From: Natronobeatus ordinarius | GTDB lineage: Archaea > Halobacteriota > Halobacteria > Halobacteriales > Natrialbaceae | Assembly: GCF_024362485.1 (NCBI RefSeq) | Contig: NZ_CP101456.1 | Coordinates: 1,116,001 to 1,180,000, forward strand | Direction of reading: 5' to 3' | DNA: 64,000 nt | Shown: in pieces, positions 4,625 through 58,723 of the stretch | How positions within the stretch are numbered: the stretch's first letter is position 1 | Layout: every line of letters starts with the position of its first letter | Made by a program: the position numbers and the translations under genes | Notes under the pieces: generated by a model | Told to the model about the DNA's origin: nothing | The model's input: only the letters and a program-made list of their open reading frames with translations | The model's database searches: none

Positions 4625-5290
4625 TCAAGCGCTCTCGTTGAACCGCCGGTTCGTCGAGTACGGCGCGTCGCCCGGTTCGCCCCGGACGAAGTGACCGGCC
4701 GGGTTGATCTCGCCGTCGCGCTCCATCGAGAGCAACTCGATGAACCACGCCTCGTGTTCGATCTCCTCCTGGAGGATTCTCGAGGCCATGTCGTACGTTC
4801 GCGGGTCTTTCCCGTTAGCGGTCATGTCACAGATTTCCGACCACGTACGGATCGCACAGCGCTCGGCCTCGAGCAACACCTCGAGGATGCCCTCGGCGTC
4901 CAGTCCAGACGTGTCGAAGCCGCCCTCGTCGTCCATCGGTGTCGGTACTTCCGCGTCCGGACACGAGGCGCGGTCGGCGAAGTCCCGAATGTCGTTCGGG
5001 AGCGCGCCGCCCAGCTCGTACACCCGCGGGACGACGAGTTCGAAGTGGGCGCGGTCCTCGAGGCGGGCGTCCTCGGTGATCTCCTTGTAGTCTTCGTTCC
5101 CCGCCATGTGCATCCGGAGGTTGGTGTAGTAGTAGTACGTCGTGAACTCGGCGCCGATCGCGTCGATCAACTTCTCGCGGAGTTCCTCGGGTTCGACGCC
5201 ACGTTCGCGCAGCACTTCCATCCCGACGCGCTGGCTGGTGTCGCCGGGTGAGATGCTGCCGCTGGCGTGAGGTTTGTCACTGTCTGACAT
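4625..5290 (-). CDS. Dps-like ferritin (DPSL/thioferritin-like)
   Basis: The 221-residue protein shows the four-helix ferritin pattern of iron ligands: Glu in [12 protein letters not shown], Glu/His in [10 protein letters not shown], Glu in [12 protein letters not shown], and ExxH in [10 protein letters not shown]. Cysteines in ASCPD and in [12 protein letters not shown] could correspond to the cysteines of archaeal Dps-like (thioferritin) proteins. Such proteins oxidise iron with peroxide and protect DNA. The ATG at 5290 is preferred over a GTG nine bases upstream. A second ferritin-like gene lies about 315 bases upstream, beyond palindromic repeats. Confidence 0.8.
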
Positions 5291-5399
5291 CGGCACCACT
5301 CACCACCACGGACTCCCCTTTAGTCCTTTTAGGTACTCGTCTTATACGTCCGCGAGAAGGAAGCCTCGGCCGGATCGATCCCAGTTCGGTTCGTGGCGG

Positions 5400-5521
5400 T
5401 ATAGTAACCGTTGAAAGTCATTACACACCCGGTCACGACCGTTGGCGGGCACCCTCGCCAACGAGACCGAGGCTGCCCGCTCGGCTGTGACCGGGTGTAA
5501 ATCGTTTCAACGAGTACTATA
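5400..5521. repeat. Palindromic element with TATAGTA termini, copy 1 (MITE-like)
   Basis: The left arm (5400-5436) starts TATAGTAACCGTTGAAA and runs into TTACACACCCGGTCAC. The right arm (5487-5521) is its near-complete inverted repeat, ending TTTCAACGAGTACTATA. A second nested 8-bp palindrome, CGTTGGCG/CGCCAACG, lies at 5440-5447 and 5456-5463. There is no ORF inside. This looks like a short mobile palindrome or MITE. Related copies lie near 41.2 and 58.6 kb. Confidence 0.75.
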
Positions 5522-5555
5522 TCGTAGCGGGGACCCGTCGTTGCACGCCGATCAC

Positions 5556-5592
5556 AGCCGAACGGGTGTAAATCGTTTCAACGAGTACTATA
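5556..5592. repeat. Solo right arm of the TATAGTA palindromic element
   Basis: The sequence GGTGTAAATCGTTTCAACG followed by AGTACTATA repeats the right arm of the element at 5400-5521 exactly, 71 bases further on. This suggests a tandem partial duplication or a second, truncated insertion. Confidence 0.65.
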
Positions 5593-5605: not shown

Positions 5606-6061
5606 TCAATCCGTGGGAAACTCCTTCTGGAACCCCCTGAACTCGGTGTGGTGTGCTTCCTCGTCGGCGAGGACAGTGACCGCTACGTCCTCAGTGACCG
5701 GGTCGTTCGCCTCTCCTGCGGCCTCGTAGAGCGCGCGATAGGTCTCCATCGCGTTCTCCTCGGCCTCGAGAACGCCCTCGATGACCGACTGGACGTCGGT
5801 CGTATCAGCCGGCGGCTGGAGGCTCGACTGGCGGGCTTCGAACCCCTCCGAGCCCGGCGGCGACTCGTCGAGTTGTTTCAGTCGCTGACCGAGCAACCGG
5901 GCGTGCTCGAGTTCCTCCTCGACGTCCTCGGCGAGGCTCTCTTTCACCTCTTCGGCGTGGACCCCATCGAGGACGATCGAATTGGTGAGGTAGTTCATTA
6001 CGGTCTCGAGTTCGTCGACGTACGCTTCCGTGAGCAGGTCGATGACTTCGTCCGACGTCAT
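5606..6061 (-). CDS. Ferritin-like diiron protein
   Basis: The 151-residue product is all-helical with ferritin-type ligands: Glu in VDELETVMNYL, ExxH in EEELEHARLLG, Glu in LEAEENAMETY and ExxH in DEEAHHTEFRG. This is the E-ExxH-E-ExxH pattern of bacterioferritin-like diiron sites. The ATG at 6061 (MTSDEVIDLLTEAY) is chosen over an upstream start that would add thirteen arginine-rich residues. Iron storage or peroxide defence is likely, but the exact subfamily is not clear. Confidence 0.8.
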   Translation of the reverse strand: MTSDEVIDLLTEAYVDELETVMNYLTNSIVLDGVHAEEVKESLAEDVEEELEHARLLGQRLKQLDESPPGSEGFEARQSSLQPPADTTDVQSVIEGVLEAEENAMETYRALYEAAGEANDPVTEDVAVTVLADEEAHHTEFRGFQKEFPTD

Positions 6062-6364
6062 TGCGACTCGTAGTACGACGGGCCGACGTATAATGCCCAC
6101 CTGCCCCGTGAGAACTGCGTCCGGACCGACCCCACCGGACGAACGTCCACTCGAGGGTGCGCGCCAGCCGCCGTGAGTATAGATACGAAGATTTTAGAGA
6201 AAAATTTACATCGCGTGTCAACGCCCTGGTGGGCAACAATAGGTATCACACTGGACGAATAGAATGTGTATAATTACCTAATAGCTGTTTATGTCGTGCG
6301 ATTTCCGAACTGGGGTCACGGTTGCGATGGCGAGCTGCCCTCGATCGGCTGTCGCAGCGCCAGT
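6062..6364. other. Spacer between the ferritin-like gene and leuA
   Basis: About 300 bases without a convincing gene. There is an AT-rich stretch at about 6175-6215 with runs such as TTTTAGAGAAAAATTT, unusual for this GC-rich DNA, which may hold the minus-strand promoter of the ferritin-like gene or other control sites. Nothing else recognisable. Confidence 0.5.
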
Positions 6365-33116: not shown

Positions 33117-33255
33117 TCCATCGACTAGATTCGACCGGCGTCACTAAAGGCTCTCGACACTGTGCTGGGTGCGTTGGGAACCTGGCCTGCCGGCCCGTCG
33201 AGTACGTCGACGAACGCCCGATCGTCGGGAATCACCGACGGCAGACGTTCAGTGG

Positions 33256-34209
33256 CTACGATAGCTCCCCGGCGTCTGTGGTCGACTCGACGTACAGCGA
33301 CAGACACCGTTCGCGGACGTCGATCTCGAGTGCCGTCGCCGAGACCAGTTCGCCGTCGAGGCTGAACGTCACCGGCTCTTCCTCGAGTCCTTCGATCGAC
33401 AGCGACGACACCTCGAGTCGGGTGACAGGCGTCAGGTCGCCTTCGAGGAGTCGTGACAGCCGTCCCTCCTCGAGCGTCTCGGGGTCGGGTCGTTCCTCGA
33501 GGATCGTCACCTCGAGCAGGCCGTCCTCGGTACTCGGCCGGTCCCGGCGGCGGACGCTCGGCAGCCGGAACGCGTTTCCGATCAGGACGAGCAGGGCGTC
33601 GCCACGCCACGTCTCGCTTTCGGGCACGCCGGGCTCGAGCGTCACTCGGAGCGGGATTCCGTCGTACTCCGGGAGCAGCCGGAGCGTCGTCAACACGTAC
33701 GCGAGCGGCCCCAGCCGGCGTTTCAACTCGCCCGGCGTCGACGTGTTCGCCTCGGCCGAGATGCCGGCCAGACAGGTGTTCACGAACGGGCGATCGTCTG
33801 CGAACCCGACGTCGATGCGCCGTCGACGTCCCTGGTCGAGGAGGTCGAACCCTCGGTCGACGTCGTCGATCCCGAGCTGCCGCGCGAAGAGGTTGGCGGT
33901 ACCCGTCGGGATCACCGCGACGTCGACCGCCTCGAGCGCGTCCGCGTCGACGAGTCCGTGAACGACCTCGTTGACCGTTCCGTCGCCGCCAGCGACGGCC
34001 ACCAGTGAGGCGCCGTCGGCCGCGGCCTCGCGTGCGAGTCGCCTGGCGTCGCCCGCCGTCTCGGTTTCGCGGACGTCGAACTCCCGCTCGAGCGCCCGTG
34101 CGCGGATCTCCTCGGCGTGGTCGCCCGATCCGCTCGCGGGGTTGCAGACGAGCACTCGGTCGACGCCGCCTGCACGAGTCGTTCGTCGTTCGTCCGCCTG
34201 ACCGTCCAT
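33256..34209 (-). CDS. Diacylglycerol kinase-family lipid kinase
   Basis: The 317-residue protein has the catalytic-domain motifs of the DAGK/YegS family: LVCNPASGSGDHAEEI (near 20), the nucleotide loop VAVAGGDGTVNEVVHGL (near 68) and VIPTGTANLFARQLG (near 98). A C-terminal beta-sandwich contains EEEPVTFSLDGELV. These kinases phosphorylate lipids, and archaeal members may act on ether lipids. The ATG at 34209 is preferred over an upstream start that adds eight residues. Confidence 0.88.
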   Translation of the reverse strand: MDGQADERRTTRAGGVDRVLVCNPASGSGDHAEEIRARALEREFDVRETETAGDARRLAREAAADGASLVAVAGGDGTVNEVVHGLVDADALEAVDVAVIPTGTANLFARQLGIDDVDRGFDLLDQGRRRRIDVGFADDRPFVNTCLAGISAEANTSTPGELKRRLGPLAYVLTTLRLLPEYDGIPLRVTLEPGVPESETWRGDALLVLIGNAFRLPSVRRRDRPSTEDGLLEVTILEERPDPETLEEGRLSRLLEGDLTPVTRLEVSSLSIEGLEEEPVTFSLDGELVSATALEIDVRERCLSLYVESTTDAGELS

Positions 34210-37795: not shown

Positions 37796-38121
37796 GGAAG
37801 CATGTACCACGCCCCCCGGCTAAAACGTTCGCAGAACTGGATTTTTGTAACACGAACGACCATATTGTGGTCACTGCTCGCCCGCCCCAGCTGAAACGGG
37901 GTACACACCGCGAGCAGGTGGCCACTGACGGGAAGCGGCTCCGAAATCGTCGACGGGTGACGTTCGAGGGTGGTCGCGTCTAACGGCCGTCCGTGGGTGC
38001 CAATCGTTCGGGTCGGGCGACCATTTCGTCTCCGTGTGAATTCCGGCCGGTGGGTCGATGACAGAACAGTAGGTTTATCAAGCGCACGGCGGAAGAATCA
38101 CCTAAGATTACTCATCGTCTT
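37796..38121. other. Spacer before the aIF2-gamma operon, with a palindrome
   Basis: No gene seen. GTGGTCACTGCTCGC (37867-37881) is nearly mirrored by GCGAGCAGGTGGCCAC (37910-37925). The part between, CTGAAACGGGGTACACACC, resembles an arm of the TATAGTA palindromic family at 58.6 kb, so it may be a degraded copy. TTTATCA at about 38073-38079 is a likely TATA box for aIF2-gamma, giving a leader of roughly 20 bases. Confidence 0.5.
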
Positions 38122-40518: not shown

Positions 40519-41106
40519 GTGTCCCGAGACGTAGCCGACGACGCCGGCAGGGACGACGAGCCGCTGCTGGTTCTTCCCGACGAGCTTCGAAGCGAGCTGA
40601 AAGAGCCATTCGGCCCTATCGAGACCGACGCCGAAACGCTCCTCGAGCGCGCCGACCCGCCGATCGTTGCCGTCGGCGACGTCGTCACCTATCACCTGCT
40701 CCAGGCCGACTACCCACCGGACGTCGCCGTCGTCGACGGCCGAACCAAACGCCAGGCCGTCGATGCCGAGATCCGCGAGGCCGTAACCACGGGCGCGAGC
40801 CTCGAGGTCGAAAACCCGCCCGCGACGATCACCGAAGCCCTCGTCCGTGCACTCTGTACCGCGCTCGAGGCCGACGAACCCACGACGATCCTCGTCGACG
40901 GGGAAGAGGACCTCGCCGCACTGCCGGCGATCGTCGCTGCCCCCGAGGGCGCGAGCGTCGTCTACGGCCAACCCGACGAGGGGATGGTGCTCGTACGCGT
41001 CGCAGCGCCCGTCCGAACCGACGTTCGGGAACTGCTCGAGCGACTCGAGGGTGACTGCGACCGGCTGTGGACGCTGCTGTCCGAGGACTGTTCTCGGAGT
41101 CACTGA
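40519..41106 (+). CDS. GTP-dependent dephospho-CoA kinase (DUF359 family)
   Basis: The 195-residue protein contains the motifs of the archaeal enzyme: AVGDVVTYHLLQADYPPDVA (near residue 55), VVDGRTKRQ and ILVDGEEDLAALPAIVAAP then VVYGQPDEGMVLV (near 140-165). It makes coenzyme A from dephospho-CoA using GTP. The start is a GTG at 40519, one base after the spt4 stop; ATG starts lie too far in. It is often beside spt4 in archaea. Confidence 0.92.
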   Translation: MSRDVADDAGRDDEPLLVLPDELRSELKEPFGPIETDAETLLERADPPIVAVGDVVTYHLLQADYPPDVAVVDGRTKRQAVDAEIREAVTTGASLEVENPPATITEALVRALCTALEADEPTTILVDGEEDLAALPAIVAAPEGASVVYGQPDEGMVLVRVAAPVRTDVRELLERLEGDCDRLWTLLSEDCSRSH

Positions 41107-41161: not shown

Positions 41162-41189
41162 TATAGTAACCGTTGAAACGAGTACTGTA
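41162..41189. repeat. Minimal TATAGTA palindromic element (internal deletion)
   Basis: TATAGTAACCGTTGAAA joins directly to the end CGAGTACTGTA, i.e. the outer 17 bases of the left arm of the 5.4 kb element meet the outer bases of its right arm. The inner part is gone. One mismatch is present (CTGTA for CTATA). Confidence 0.65.
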
Positions 41190-41396: not shown

Positions 41397-41471
41397 GGTC
41401 CGGGTGCGAGAATTGAACCCGCGTCTCAGCCTCCACAAGGCTGAAGGATAGTCCACTACCCCAACCCGGAC
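41397..41471 (-). tRNA. tRNA-His (GUG)
   Basis: Read on the minus strand: acceptor GTCCGGG/CCCGGAC with discriminator C, anticodon arm CAGCC-TTGTGGA-GGCTG (anticodon GTG), and T arm with GGTTCAATTC. The 5' extra G typical of mature tRNA-His is not encoded (a T stands there), so it must be added after transcription. CCA is not encoded. Confidence 0.93.
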
Positions 41472-55242: not shown

Positions 55243-57006
55243 ATGAGTCAGGCACAGGAAACGGAGACCGTCCGCGAGGACGGTGTCATCGAAAGCGTGA
55301 GCGGTCCGGTCGTGACCGCCGCGGACCTCGACGCCCGGATGAACGACGTCGTCTACGTCGGCGACGAAGGGCTGATGGGCGAGGTCATCGAAATCGAAGG
55401 GAACCTGACCACGATTCAGGTGTACGAGGAGACCTCCGGGGTCGGCCCCGGCGAACCCGTCGAGAACACGGGCGAGCCCCTGAGCGTCGACCTCGGACCG
55501 GGCCTGCTGGACACCATCTACGACGGCGTCCAGCGCCCGCTCGACGAACTCGAGGAGAAGATGCAGTCGGCGTTCCTCGACCGCGGGGTCGACGCGCCGG
55601 GCATCGACCTCGAGCGAACCTGGGAGTTCACCCCGTCCGTCGAGGAAGGCGACGCGGTCGAGCCAGGGGACGTCATCGGCGAGGTTCCCGAGACCGAGAG
55701 CATCACCCACAAAGTGATGGTCCCGCCGGATTACGAGGGCGGTGAGATCACGTCGATCGAAGCCGGTGAGTTCACGGTCGAAGAGACCGTCGCGGAACTG
55801 TCCTCCGGCGAAGAGATCTCGATGCACCAGGAGTGGCCGGTCCGAAAGGCCCGCCCCGCAGCCGAAAAGGAGACGCCAACGGTCCCGCTGCAGTCGGGCC
55901 AGCGTATCCAGGACGGACTGTTCCCGATCGCCAAGGGTGGGACCGCAGCGATTCCCGGTCCGTTCGGTTCGGGGAAGACGGTCACCCAGCACCAGCTCGC
56001 GAAGTGGTCCGACGCGGACATCGTCGTCTACGTCGGCTGTGGCGAGCGTGGAAACGAGATGACCGAGGTCATCGAGGACTTCCCGAACCTCGAGGATCCG
56101 ATGACGGGCAAGCCGCTGATGAGCCGAACGTGTCTCATCGCGAACACCTCGAATATGCCTGTCGCCGCCCGTGAGTCCTGTATCTACACGGGAATCACGA
56201 TCGCGGAATACTTCCGTGACATGGGCTACGACGTCGCGCTGATGGCCGACTCCACCTCCCGGTGGGCGGAAGCCATGCGTGAAATCTCGAGCCGACTCGA
56301 GGAGATGCCCGGCGAGGAAGGCTACCCCGCCTATCTCGCGGCGGCGCTCTCCGAGTTCTACGAGCGCGCTGGCCTGTTCCAGAACGTAAACGGCACCAAG
56401 GGATCGGTGACGGCGATCGGCGCCGTCTCGCCACCGGGCGGAGACTTCTCCGAGCCGGTCACCCAGAACACCCTGCGGATCGTCAAGACGTTCTGGGCGC
56501 TCGACGCGGACCTCGCCGAACGGCGACACTTCCCGTCGATCAACTGGAACGAGTCGTACTCGCTGTATCGCCAGCAACTCGACCCCTGGTTCCGCGAGAA
56601 CGTCGCCGAGGACTTCCCGGAGGTCCGCCAGTGGGCCATCGACGTCCTCGACGAGGAAGACGAGCTCCAGGAGATCGTTCAGCTCGTCGGCAAGGACGCC
56701 TTGCCCGAGGACCAGCAGCTGACCCTCGAGGTCGCCCGCTACCTGCGTGAAGCGTGGCTCCAGCAGAACGCGTTCCACGACGTGGACACCTACTGCGAGC
56801 CGAAGAAGACCTACCGGATGCTCGAGGCGATCAAGACGTTCAACGACGAGGCCTTCCAGGCGCTCGAGGCGGGCGTCCCGGTCGAGGAGATCCAGAACGT
56901 CGACGCCGCACCGCGGCTCAACCGGATGGGAACGGCCGACGAGTGGCGCGAGTTCATCGAGGAACTCGAGGCAGACCTCAAAGAACAGATTCGGGGGCTG
57001 TACTGA
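55243..57006 (+). CDS. atpA: A-type ATP synthase subunit A (catalytic)
   Basis: The 587-residue subunit has the Walker A motif [15 protein letters not shown] (near residue 238), the A-type insert before it, Walker [17 protein letters not shown] (near 330) and [16 protein letters not shown]. The arginine-containing region [20 protein letters not shown] follows. No intein is present. It hydrolyses or makes ATP. ATG at 55243. Confidence 0.98.
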
Positions 57007-57008
57007 AC

Positions 57009-58415
57009 ATGAAAGAATACCAAACTATTACGGAGATTAGCGGTCCGCTGGTGTTCGCCGAAGTCGACGAGCCCGTCGGCTACGACGAGATCGTCGAGAT
57101 CGAGACGCCACAGGGAGAGACCCTGCGCGGACAGGTGCTCGAGTCCTCCGAGGGGCTGGTCTCGATCCAGGTCTTCGAGGGCACGGGCGGTATCGACCGC
57201 AACGCCTCGGTTCGCTTCCTGGGCGAGACGATGAAGATGCCCGTCACCGAGGACCTGCTCGGACGGGTGCTCGACGGCTCCGGCCGACCGATCGACGGCG
57301 GCCCGGAGATCGTCCCCGAGGAGCGCCAGGATATCGTCGGCGCGGCGATCAACCCCTACTCGCGTGAGTACCCCGAGGAGTTCATCCAGACCGGTGTGAG
57401 CGCCATCGACGGCATGAACACCCTCGTTCGTGGCCAGAAGCTGCCGATCTTCTCCGGGTCGGGGCTGCCCCACAACGACCTCGCACTCCAGATCGCCCGG
57501 CAGGCGACGGTGCCGGAAGAAGACGAAGGAGGCGAGGGCTCGGAGTTCGCAGTCATCTTCGGCGCGATGGGGATCACCCAGGAAGAGGCCAACGAGTTCA
57601 TGGCCGACTTCGAGCGGACGGGCGCACTCGAGCGCTCTGTCGTCTTCATGAACCTCGCGGACGACCCCGCAGTCGAGCGGACGGTCACCCCGCGACTTGC
57701 CCTGACCACGGCGGAGTACCTCGCCTTCGAGAAGGACTACCACGTGCTCGTCATCCTCACCGACATCACGAACTACTGTGAGGCGCTGCGTGAGATCGGT
57801 GCCGCGCGTGAGGAGGTTCCGGGTCGGCGTGGCTACCCCGGCTACATGTACACCGACCTGGCCCAGCTCTACGAGCGTGCAGGTCGACTCAAAGACCGTG
57901 ACGGGTCGGTCACCCAGATCCCGATCCTCACGATGCCCGGCGACGACGACACCCACCCGATCCCCGACCTGACCGGTTACATCACCGAGGGTCAGATCGT
58001 GATGGACCGTGACCTCCACAGCCAGGGTATCGAGCCGCCGGTGAACGTCCTGCCAAGCCTCTCGCGGCTGATGGACGACGGGATCGGTGAGGGGCTGACC
58101 CGCGCCGACCACGCCGACGTCTCCGATCAGATGTACGCCGGCTACGCGGAAGGTGAGGACCTCCGTGACCTGGTGAACATCGTCGGTCGCGAGGCGCTGT
58201 CCGAGCGTGACAACAAGTTCCTCGACTTCGCCGACCGCTTCGAAGACGAGTTCGTCCAGCAGGGCTACGACACGAACCGCTCGATCGAGGAGACCCTCGA
58301 GATCGGCTGGGATCTCCTCTCTGACCTGCCGAAAGAAGAGCTCAACCGTATCGACGAGGACTTCATCGCGGAACACTACCGCGAGGACGAAGCCGAAGCC
58401 GTCCAGGCTGACTGA
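57009..58415 (+). CDS. atpB: A-type ATP synthase subunit B (regulatory nucleotide-binding)
   Basis: The 468-residue subunit reads [20 protein letters not shown] at the ATG (57009). [20 protein letters not shown] takes the place of a Walker A loop, as usual for B. The arginine finger region [20 protein letters not shown] is present. It alternates with A in the head. It is the last operon gene seen; subunit D, expected next, is missing in the window. Confidence 0.98.
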
Positions 58416-58723
58416 GCACCGATCGCTCGAGCCGTCGTCTCGGTTCGATCTCTCCGTGCGCTTTCGGTTTGCTCCGTTTCTGTGACCGCCGACGTGGCGC
58501 TCCAGTCCGTGCTCGGTCACAGCCACCACTGAGACGGGTTGTACACTGACGTTCAGTGGCTACTGAAGGTGACCTGCTGCTCGAGCGAACGGTGTTCCAA
58601 TCTGGCTGGCCGAGGGCGAGTTATAGTAACAACTGAAACGGTTTACACACAGCTCGCAGGTGTGCAATGACTTTCAGTGGCTACTATATCAACCCCGGTC
58701 GCGGTGACGCTCGCCGACTCGCG
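58416..58723. other. Spacer after atpB with two palindromic elements
   Basis: No gene seen and no subunit D. A degraded element lies at about 58518-58566 (AGCCACCACTGAGACGGG against TTCAGTGGCTACTGA) and a clearer one at 58622-58688. Transcription of the ATP synthase operon probably ends here. Confidence 0.55.
58622..58688. repeat. Palindromic element with TATAGTA termini, copy 3
   Basis: TATAGTAACAACTGAAAC then GGTTTACACAC is mirrored by GTGTGCAATGACTTTCAGTG then GCTACTATA. The loop is AGCTCGCAG. The termini agree with the elements at 5.4 and 41.2 kb, with the variant TGAAA core preceded by AC instead of GT. No coding content. Confidence 0.7.

Follow-up and report, generated by a model that had tools for sequence, protein, structure and literature searches.

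TATAGTA-ended palindromes of Halobacteria, a probable MITE family of IS630 kind

Several bacterial MITEs that target TA, among them RUP, ERIC and Nezha, are short palindromes held to be mobilised in trans, and the elements described here resemble them by description. The Correia repeat of Neisseria is gene-free, with TATAGT-type ends and a TA target; its host and interior are unrelated to those of the present elements, and its end is not known to have a stop codon in the frame that is read here. It has been listed as a MITE (PMC10969869). The haloarchaeon Haloquadratum walsbyi has SMR-A, a repeat of about 110 bp whose inverted repeats are prominent and which reaches as many as 54 copies in a genome (PMC3119063). 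SMR-A is reported to make no target duplication, to have ends unlike known transposons and to show a preference for IS605-type elements and PATEs (PMC3119063); the word IS630 was not found in that text.

The window, which is the whole 64-kb stretch of DNA analysed here and spans G000:C1:1116001-1180000 of a haloarchaeal genome, contains several copies of a palindromic element. The end motif, searched across the whole window with up to 3 mismatches, has 8 matches compared with 0.45 expected, and 0 of 100 shuffles reach 8. The copies are the following:

5400 to 5521, no strand assigned: full-length copy of subfamily I, 122 bp including the TA at both ends (5400-5401, 5520-5521); the left arm is arm A (TATAGTAACCGTTGAAAGTCATT...) and the right arm is arm B; profile E 1e-40, the copy itself being part of the profile.
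5518 to 5592, no strand assigned: probable second copy, internally deleted and decayed, chained to the first through a common TATA; the right arm (5560-5592) is intact, with a profile E of 7.8e-7.
33244 to 33263, minus strand: degraded single arm of subfamily II; end-motif match and shuffle alignment, with a profile E of only 0.18.
37888 to 37929, plus strand: decayed copy like the 67-bp deleted form; alignment against shuffles, with a profile E of only 0.11.
41162 to 41189, plus strand: minimal 28-bp form made of the two termini joined; family extraction.
58525 to 58564, no strand assigned: decayed copy like a 48-bp deleted form; profile E 0.0004 and shuffle alignment.
58622 to 58688, no strand assigned: subfamily II copy of 67 bp with an internal deletion, left end B-type and right end A-type; extraction and profile.

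A sequence-only reading of the window had described a nearly perfect 122-base palindrome with a solo arm next to it, a 28-base version and a 67-base version. The palindrome and both short versions are borne out, and the hairpin at 5400-5521 has a z-score of -8.9 folded as RNA and -8.4 folded as DNA (0 of 200 shuffles in each case). The supposed solo arm is intact, but it probably belongs to a shortened, decayed second copy; this is not certain, as the trace of the other arm in 5518-5559 is weak (0.75% of shuffles score as high). Decayed copies had been suspected near 37.89 and 58.54 kb. Both score above all 2000 mononucleotide shuffles, the first when aligned to the 67-mer and the second when aligned to a 48-mer at another place in the genome; the profile match of the second is significant, but that of the first is not.

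The sequence-only reading had called all copies intergenic and gene-free. No ORF of at least 110 aa overlaps 5400-5592. The ORF before the 41162 copy ends at 41106 and a tRNA follows at 41398; the 58622 copy is downstream in coordinates of an ORF ending at 58415. However, other-frame ORFs of 187, 115 and 176 aa overlap the 41162 and 58622 copies, and a minus-strand ORF (56811-58529) touches 58525; the ORFs overlapping these three copies are assumed to be spurious. At gathering scores, Rfam finds only rRNA and tRNA in the window, which has an archaeal rRNA operon. The 5400 copy separates two minus-strand ORFs (4625-5299 and 5606-6100), both ferritin-like by eye, which are adjacent in none of the relatives' matches listed. 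The flanks of this copy were searched in 61 genomes, of which 50 (own included) match somewhere, often over a short length; besides the own genome, none among the matches listed spans both flanks (at most 7 candidates per genome were scored). Blastn against plasmids and phages gave nothing for the 122-bp window copy. For a subfamily II copy there were matches in 13 plasmid records, in 12 of them through one arm only.

In the whole host genome the end motif (TATAGTARYNRNTGAAA) has 47 exact matches compared with 1 for the reversed control, and a looser motif with 2 mismatches has 223 compared with 37. At least 67 copies were extracted, at least 53 of them 121-123 bp long and 14 others from 28 to 128 bp. 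The 67 copies are a lower bound, among the matches listed, from which spans of e.g. 37, 55, 77, 86, 95, 100, 116, 119, 137 and 146-148 bp were excluded by eye as composite, chance or too decayed. Further 28-bp forms are at C1:428486 and C1:511600. There are two subfamilies (CGTTGAAA vs ACTGAAA). A full-length copy consists of an A arm (...TGAAAGTCATTGCACACC) and a B arm (...TGAAACGATTTACAC), and the terminal inverted repeats are TATAGTA...TACTATA plus further matching arm sequence. The elements are short and multi-copy, and contain no transposase gene. Three pairs of copies in the host genome are identical; therefore, some of the amplification is recent.

The sequence-only reading named further copies and target-site duplications as the points on which it would stand or fall, and both are found. 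The joined flanks of eight insertion sites in one genome of the class (G107) were searched against 29 congeneric genomes (G107 included), and 16 orthologous stretches were fetched from three congeners. The element is missing in 11 of these and present in 3, and 2 are unalignable. Six of the 11 empty stretches (L261, L248, L251, L249, L253, L254) have exactly one TA, with both flanks aligned base by base. Two have CA at the junction (L260, L252), and the other three, all of the L217 site, keep the TA next to a diverged right flank (L259, L258, L250). The 84-bp form therefore inserts at TA and duplicates it, and since the empty sites have a single TA, the 84-bp element is 80 bp plus the duplicated TA. 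The clean sites concern the 84-bp form only, and by analogy with these relatives the 5400-5521 copy is presumed to have duplicated its TA as well.

The target context is C-TA-G at 49 of 98 insertion sites compared with 25 of 1118 TA sites in the window, and the interiors of genes are avoided (9 of 98 vs 575 of 1118). The 98 sites are from 58 of the 67 own copies, 19 of 20 loci from relatives and 21 of the 24 G107 copies; the own 28-, 48-, 82-, 83-, 98- and 128-bp forms, one locus with no pairable right end (L129) and the chained copies of L209 and L215 were left out. Head-to-tail chained copies with one common TATA occur at C1:428368-428513 (428368/428486), C1:1611738-1611903 (1611738/1611782), L209:1421-1584 and 5400-5592 of the window. 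A common TATA is not readily produced by separate insertions with TA duplication; recombination between ends is a possible source of the chains.

Of 391 genomes in the class, 109 have the end motif, as do 32 of 86 genera, with control motif counts of 0 or 1 per strand among the rows listed; some of the genomes with a single match are likely to be chance. Families f1 and f3 contain most of the matches, and 50 of 101 f1 genomes have at least 6. Most f4 genomes have few or no matches to the motif, yet a number of them have the related IS630 element described below. The version found in relatives is 84 bp long and has the same two arms; among the named carriers of the 82-84-bp form are Natrinema, Natronorubrum, Natronosalvus, Natrialba and Halovenus. 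Within genus g2 the number of matches per genome varies from 1 to 99. The 24 copies in G107 include three groups of identical 84-bp copies (four, three and two) at different sites (L188-L217), a sign of recent activity. The A-type end pattern was not found in any viral contig searched.

Arms A and B are distinct, and pair into one long hairpin. In an alignment of 59 copies of 84 bp (50 distinct), 90.4% of the cells pair. Both sides have changed at 13 of 34 pairs and in 66 cells, compared with 23.7 in shuffles (0 of 500) and at most 22 with the partner slid; 16 of the 17 copies from a pattern scan are in this alignment, and the pattern requires bases that are unusual at positions 31 and 32, which favours changes there. 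When these copies are removed, the remaining 43 (35 distinct) have such changes at 9 of 34 pairs and in 39 cells, compared with 15.0 in shuffles (0 of 500) and at most 15 slid, with the qualification that taking the pairing structure from the consensus works in its favour, and that relatedness can lift sequences above shuffles even where there is no structure. In the 43 copies, pair types are as many as in shuffles (217 of 500). A 4-by-4 internal mismatch (GTCA vs ATCG) is kept in both the 84- and the 122-bp forms; it may be a left/right mark for the transposase, or an RNA loop.

The excess of paired changes in both alignments and the conserved mismatch would also fit copies maintained because their RNA or DNA hairpin serves the host, for example as a terminator or an mRNA processing site, with mobility as their origin only. 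However, presence is patchy within genus g2, the element is missing from 11 orthologous stretches and the window has no Rfam match to it at gathering scores. The shuffles can be exceeded by kinship alone, the pair types show no excess, and correction of the palindrome at replication could be a source of paired changes without selection. A host function is an unlikely explanation for the copies. The earlier suggestion that the repeats are RNA-structured is right in that the hairpin varies by paired changes, but causes at the DNA level can give the same pattern.

The arms also have a stop codon. Both MITE arms of each subfamily read TAT AGT Axx xxx TGA when translation runs in from an interrupted TAG or TAA, so a gene with its stop interrupted in this way ends four codons later. 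At 100 termini of distinct full-length copies in the host genome, codon 5 from the terminal TA is TGA in 98, TAA in 1 and TGC in 1. Both ends of the IS630 element described below read TAT AGT Axx xxx TAG, which is a different stop from that of the MITE; among 29 IS loci its T is present at all 29 left ends and at 28 of the 29 right ends, and its A and G at every end. Every gene ending in TAG or TAA has a TA site at its stop. The 98 sites divide into 78 intergenic, 11 on stop codons and 9 inside genes, whereas the window TAs divide into 532, 11 and 575. The genes were called with a home-made, crude caller by which 68% of the window is coding, and the background is this one 64-kb window while the sites are from several genomes; on that basis the stop-codon odds are 6.8 with the rRNA operon counted as intergenic, and the excess is 4.1-fold (p 0.002) with the operon removed from the background (323 intergenic). 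A looser earlier test gave 16 of 98 sites on stop codons compared with 15 of the 1121 TAs in the window and none of its 25 CTAG sites.

Insertion on TAG or TAA would be tolerated since either arm brings a new stop after four codons. It is conceivable, though on balance doubtful, that the termini are portable stop codons and that the family is shaped to land harmlessly on stops, adding four codons and an mRNA hairpin. The stop in the arms may be selected or may be a by-product of a binding motif. If the stop-codon reading is true, the family would be a simple example of a mobile element whose design spares the host gene.

The host genome has nine DDE_3 matches, six of which are one 1059-bp IS (length including the flanking TAs); Haloferax volcanii, too, gives one DDE_3 match or more. 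Four of its copies are identical, one has two differences and one is decayed (926 of 1059 positions, ungapped). The ends are TATAGTAACCGTTAGAATT... and TATAGTAAAAATTAGAAATAATTGCTCAC..., with TATAGTA as the first seven bases, as in the MITE. The IS has two ORFs, of 174 aa and 163 aa, which overlap close to seven consecutive A; NCBIfam NF033545 (IS630) is above cut-off in both ORFs, and there are matches to Pfam PF13358 (DDE_3; E 4.7e-39) and to a Pfam HTH. At L034:1440-1520 a run of seven A stands before GCGG and the transposase is split in two overlapping ORFs, which suggests a likely frameshift site. DNA related to the IS occurs in 72 plasmid records, 48 of which contain most of its length, and some are annotated ISNma7 or ISNpe3. 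The IS is present on a plasmid of Haloferax lucentense (NZ_CP104743) and missing from one of H. alexandrinus (NZ_CP106968), where flanks 99.6% identical enclose the empty site CTGC-TA-GCCG; this is a TA duplication at CTAG. TATAGTA is at both ends in 29 of the 30 best-matching IS loci of the class. A different IS630-type DDE_3 ORF of 163 aa (L037, G000:C1:2519043-2519291) is some 0.8 kb away from a full-length element, and a single arm-like motif is further upstream.

Beyond TATAGTA, arm A matches the right end of the IS at 16 of 25 positions (shuffles 6.0; 0 of 20000) and arm B matches the left end at 13 of 25 (shuffles about 6). The crossed comparisons are nearly equal (A with left 14 of 25, B with right 13 of 25), and the pairing of arm A with the right end and arm B with the left end is only suggested. 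There are fixed terminal differences (TTAGAA in the IS vs TTGAAA in the MITE; positions 20 and 26 of arm A). Three MITE interiors have no resemblance to the IS, with 200, 229 and 45 of 300 shuffles scoring as high.

Among f1 genomes (101 of the 391), 41 of 51 with an IS hit have at least one motif match compared with 30 of 50 without (Fisher p 0.03), where a hit means E 1e-20 and also admits IS630 elements more distant than ISNma7. There is no such relation for f1 genomes with at least 20 matches (13 of 51 vs 15 of 50). Six of 12 motif-rich genomes (G193, G377, G004, G005, G025, G041) have no DDE_3 match, and the 16 DDE_3 loci in the other six have no paired ends of the expected kind. One scan of the collection for elements with A-type ends found 17 MITEs only; the pattern excludes most known MITEs, so an autonomous element with the excluded bases or other ends would be missed. 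An autonomous element with exactly the MITE ends was not found at the DDE_3 loci of motif-rich genomes or in that scan. The sequence-only reading had proposed a search for an autonomous transposon with the same termini; the IS630 element has TATAGTA ends and a TA duplication, but its inner ends are only related.

The TATAGTA termini, TA duplication and related inner ends that the two have in common would be consistent with the MITEs having arisen simply by internal deletion from the ISNma7-type IS in their own genome. The fixed terminal differences, the unlike interiors of the three copies tested and the high MITE numbers in genomes with no DDE_3 match argue against this; a better fit is an IS630 lineage that is ancestral or has been lost, and direct derivation seems slightly less probable still than a host function. 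The ends and the target mode are of IS630 type, from which we infer that the mobiliser is either an IS630 lineage that is lost, rare or unseen, or the 1059-bp IS despite the sequence difference.

It is very improbable that the family belongs with SMR-A, which would imply a route without target duplication. By the published description size, inverted repeats and copy number are alike, but the MITE family here duplicates TA and has ends that resemble an IS630 element. REP/REPIN-type palindromes moved by a Y1 (IS200/IS605-type) transposase are hardly worth considering, for although the present elements are short, palindromic, mostly intergenic and multi-copy, they duplicate TA and their terminal inverted repeats are related to those of a DDE transposon, whereas Y1 elements make no target duplication (PMC3119063, where this is said of IS605-type transposons).

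The palindromes are very probably a MITE family, non-autonomous and gene-free, of the IS630/Tc1-mariner kind. Their earlier description as MITE-like is upheld by the further copies, the TA duplication at the empty sites of the 84-bp form and the transposon with related termini. An IS630-type transposase would bind both arms, excise the element and paste it into a new TA, and the short forms (28, 48, 67 and 78-103 bp) may result from deletion inside the hairpin. The chained copies with one TATA speak against this reading, as does the fact that the empty sites are all from the 84-bp form. No name or description of the family was found in the open-licence literature, and ISfinder or subscription papers may describe it; by the available searches it is a new mobile MITE family of known IS630 kind in part of the Halobacteria. 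Mostly intergenic haloarchaeal hairpins that the Rfam scan of the window leaves unnamed are now explained and tied to a named IS family. The 84-bp element, with its TA target and its filled and empty orthologous sites, is a clean system in which trans-mobilisation could be tested in archaea.

The small elements of Haloquadratum are also transposase-free and haloarchaeal, and also outnumber transposons (PMC3119063). They differ in that the SMRs are reported to be without target duplication and the PATEs are without terminal repeats (PMC3119063). The absence of target duplication and the transposon-unrelated ends that define SMR-A are not seen in the MITE family here. ISNma7/ISNpe3 differs from the MITE in its length of 1059 bp, its transposase in two overlapping frames, its TTAGAA termini where the MITE has TTGAAA, and its unrelated interior; common to both are the TATAGTA ends, the TA duplication at CTAG and the related inner termini.
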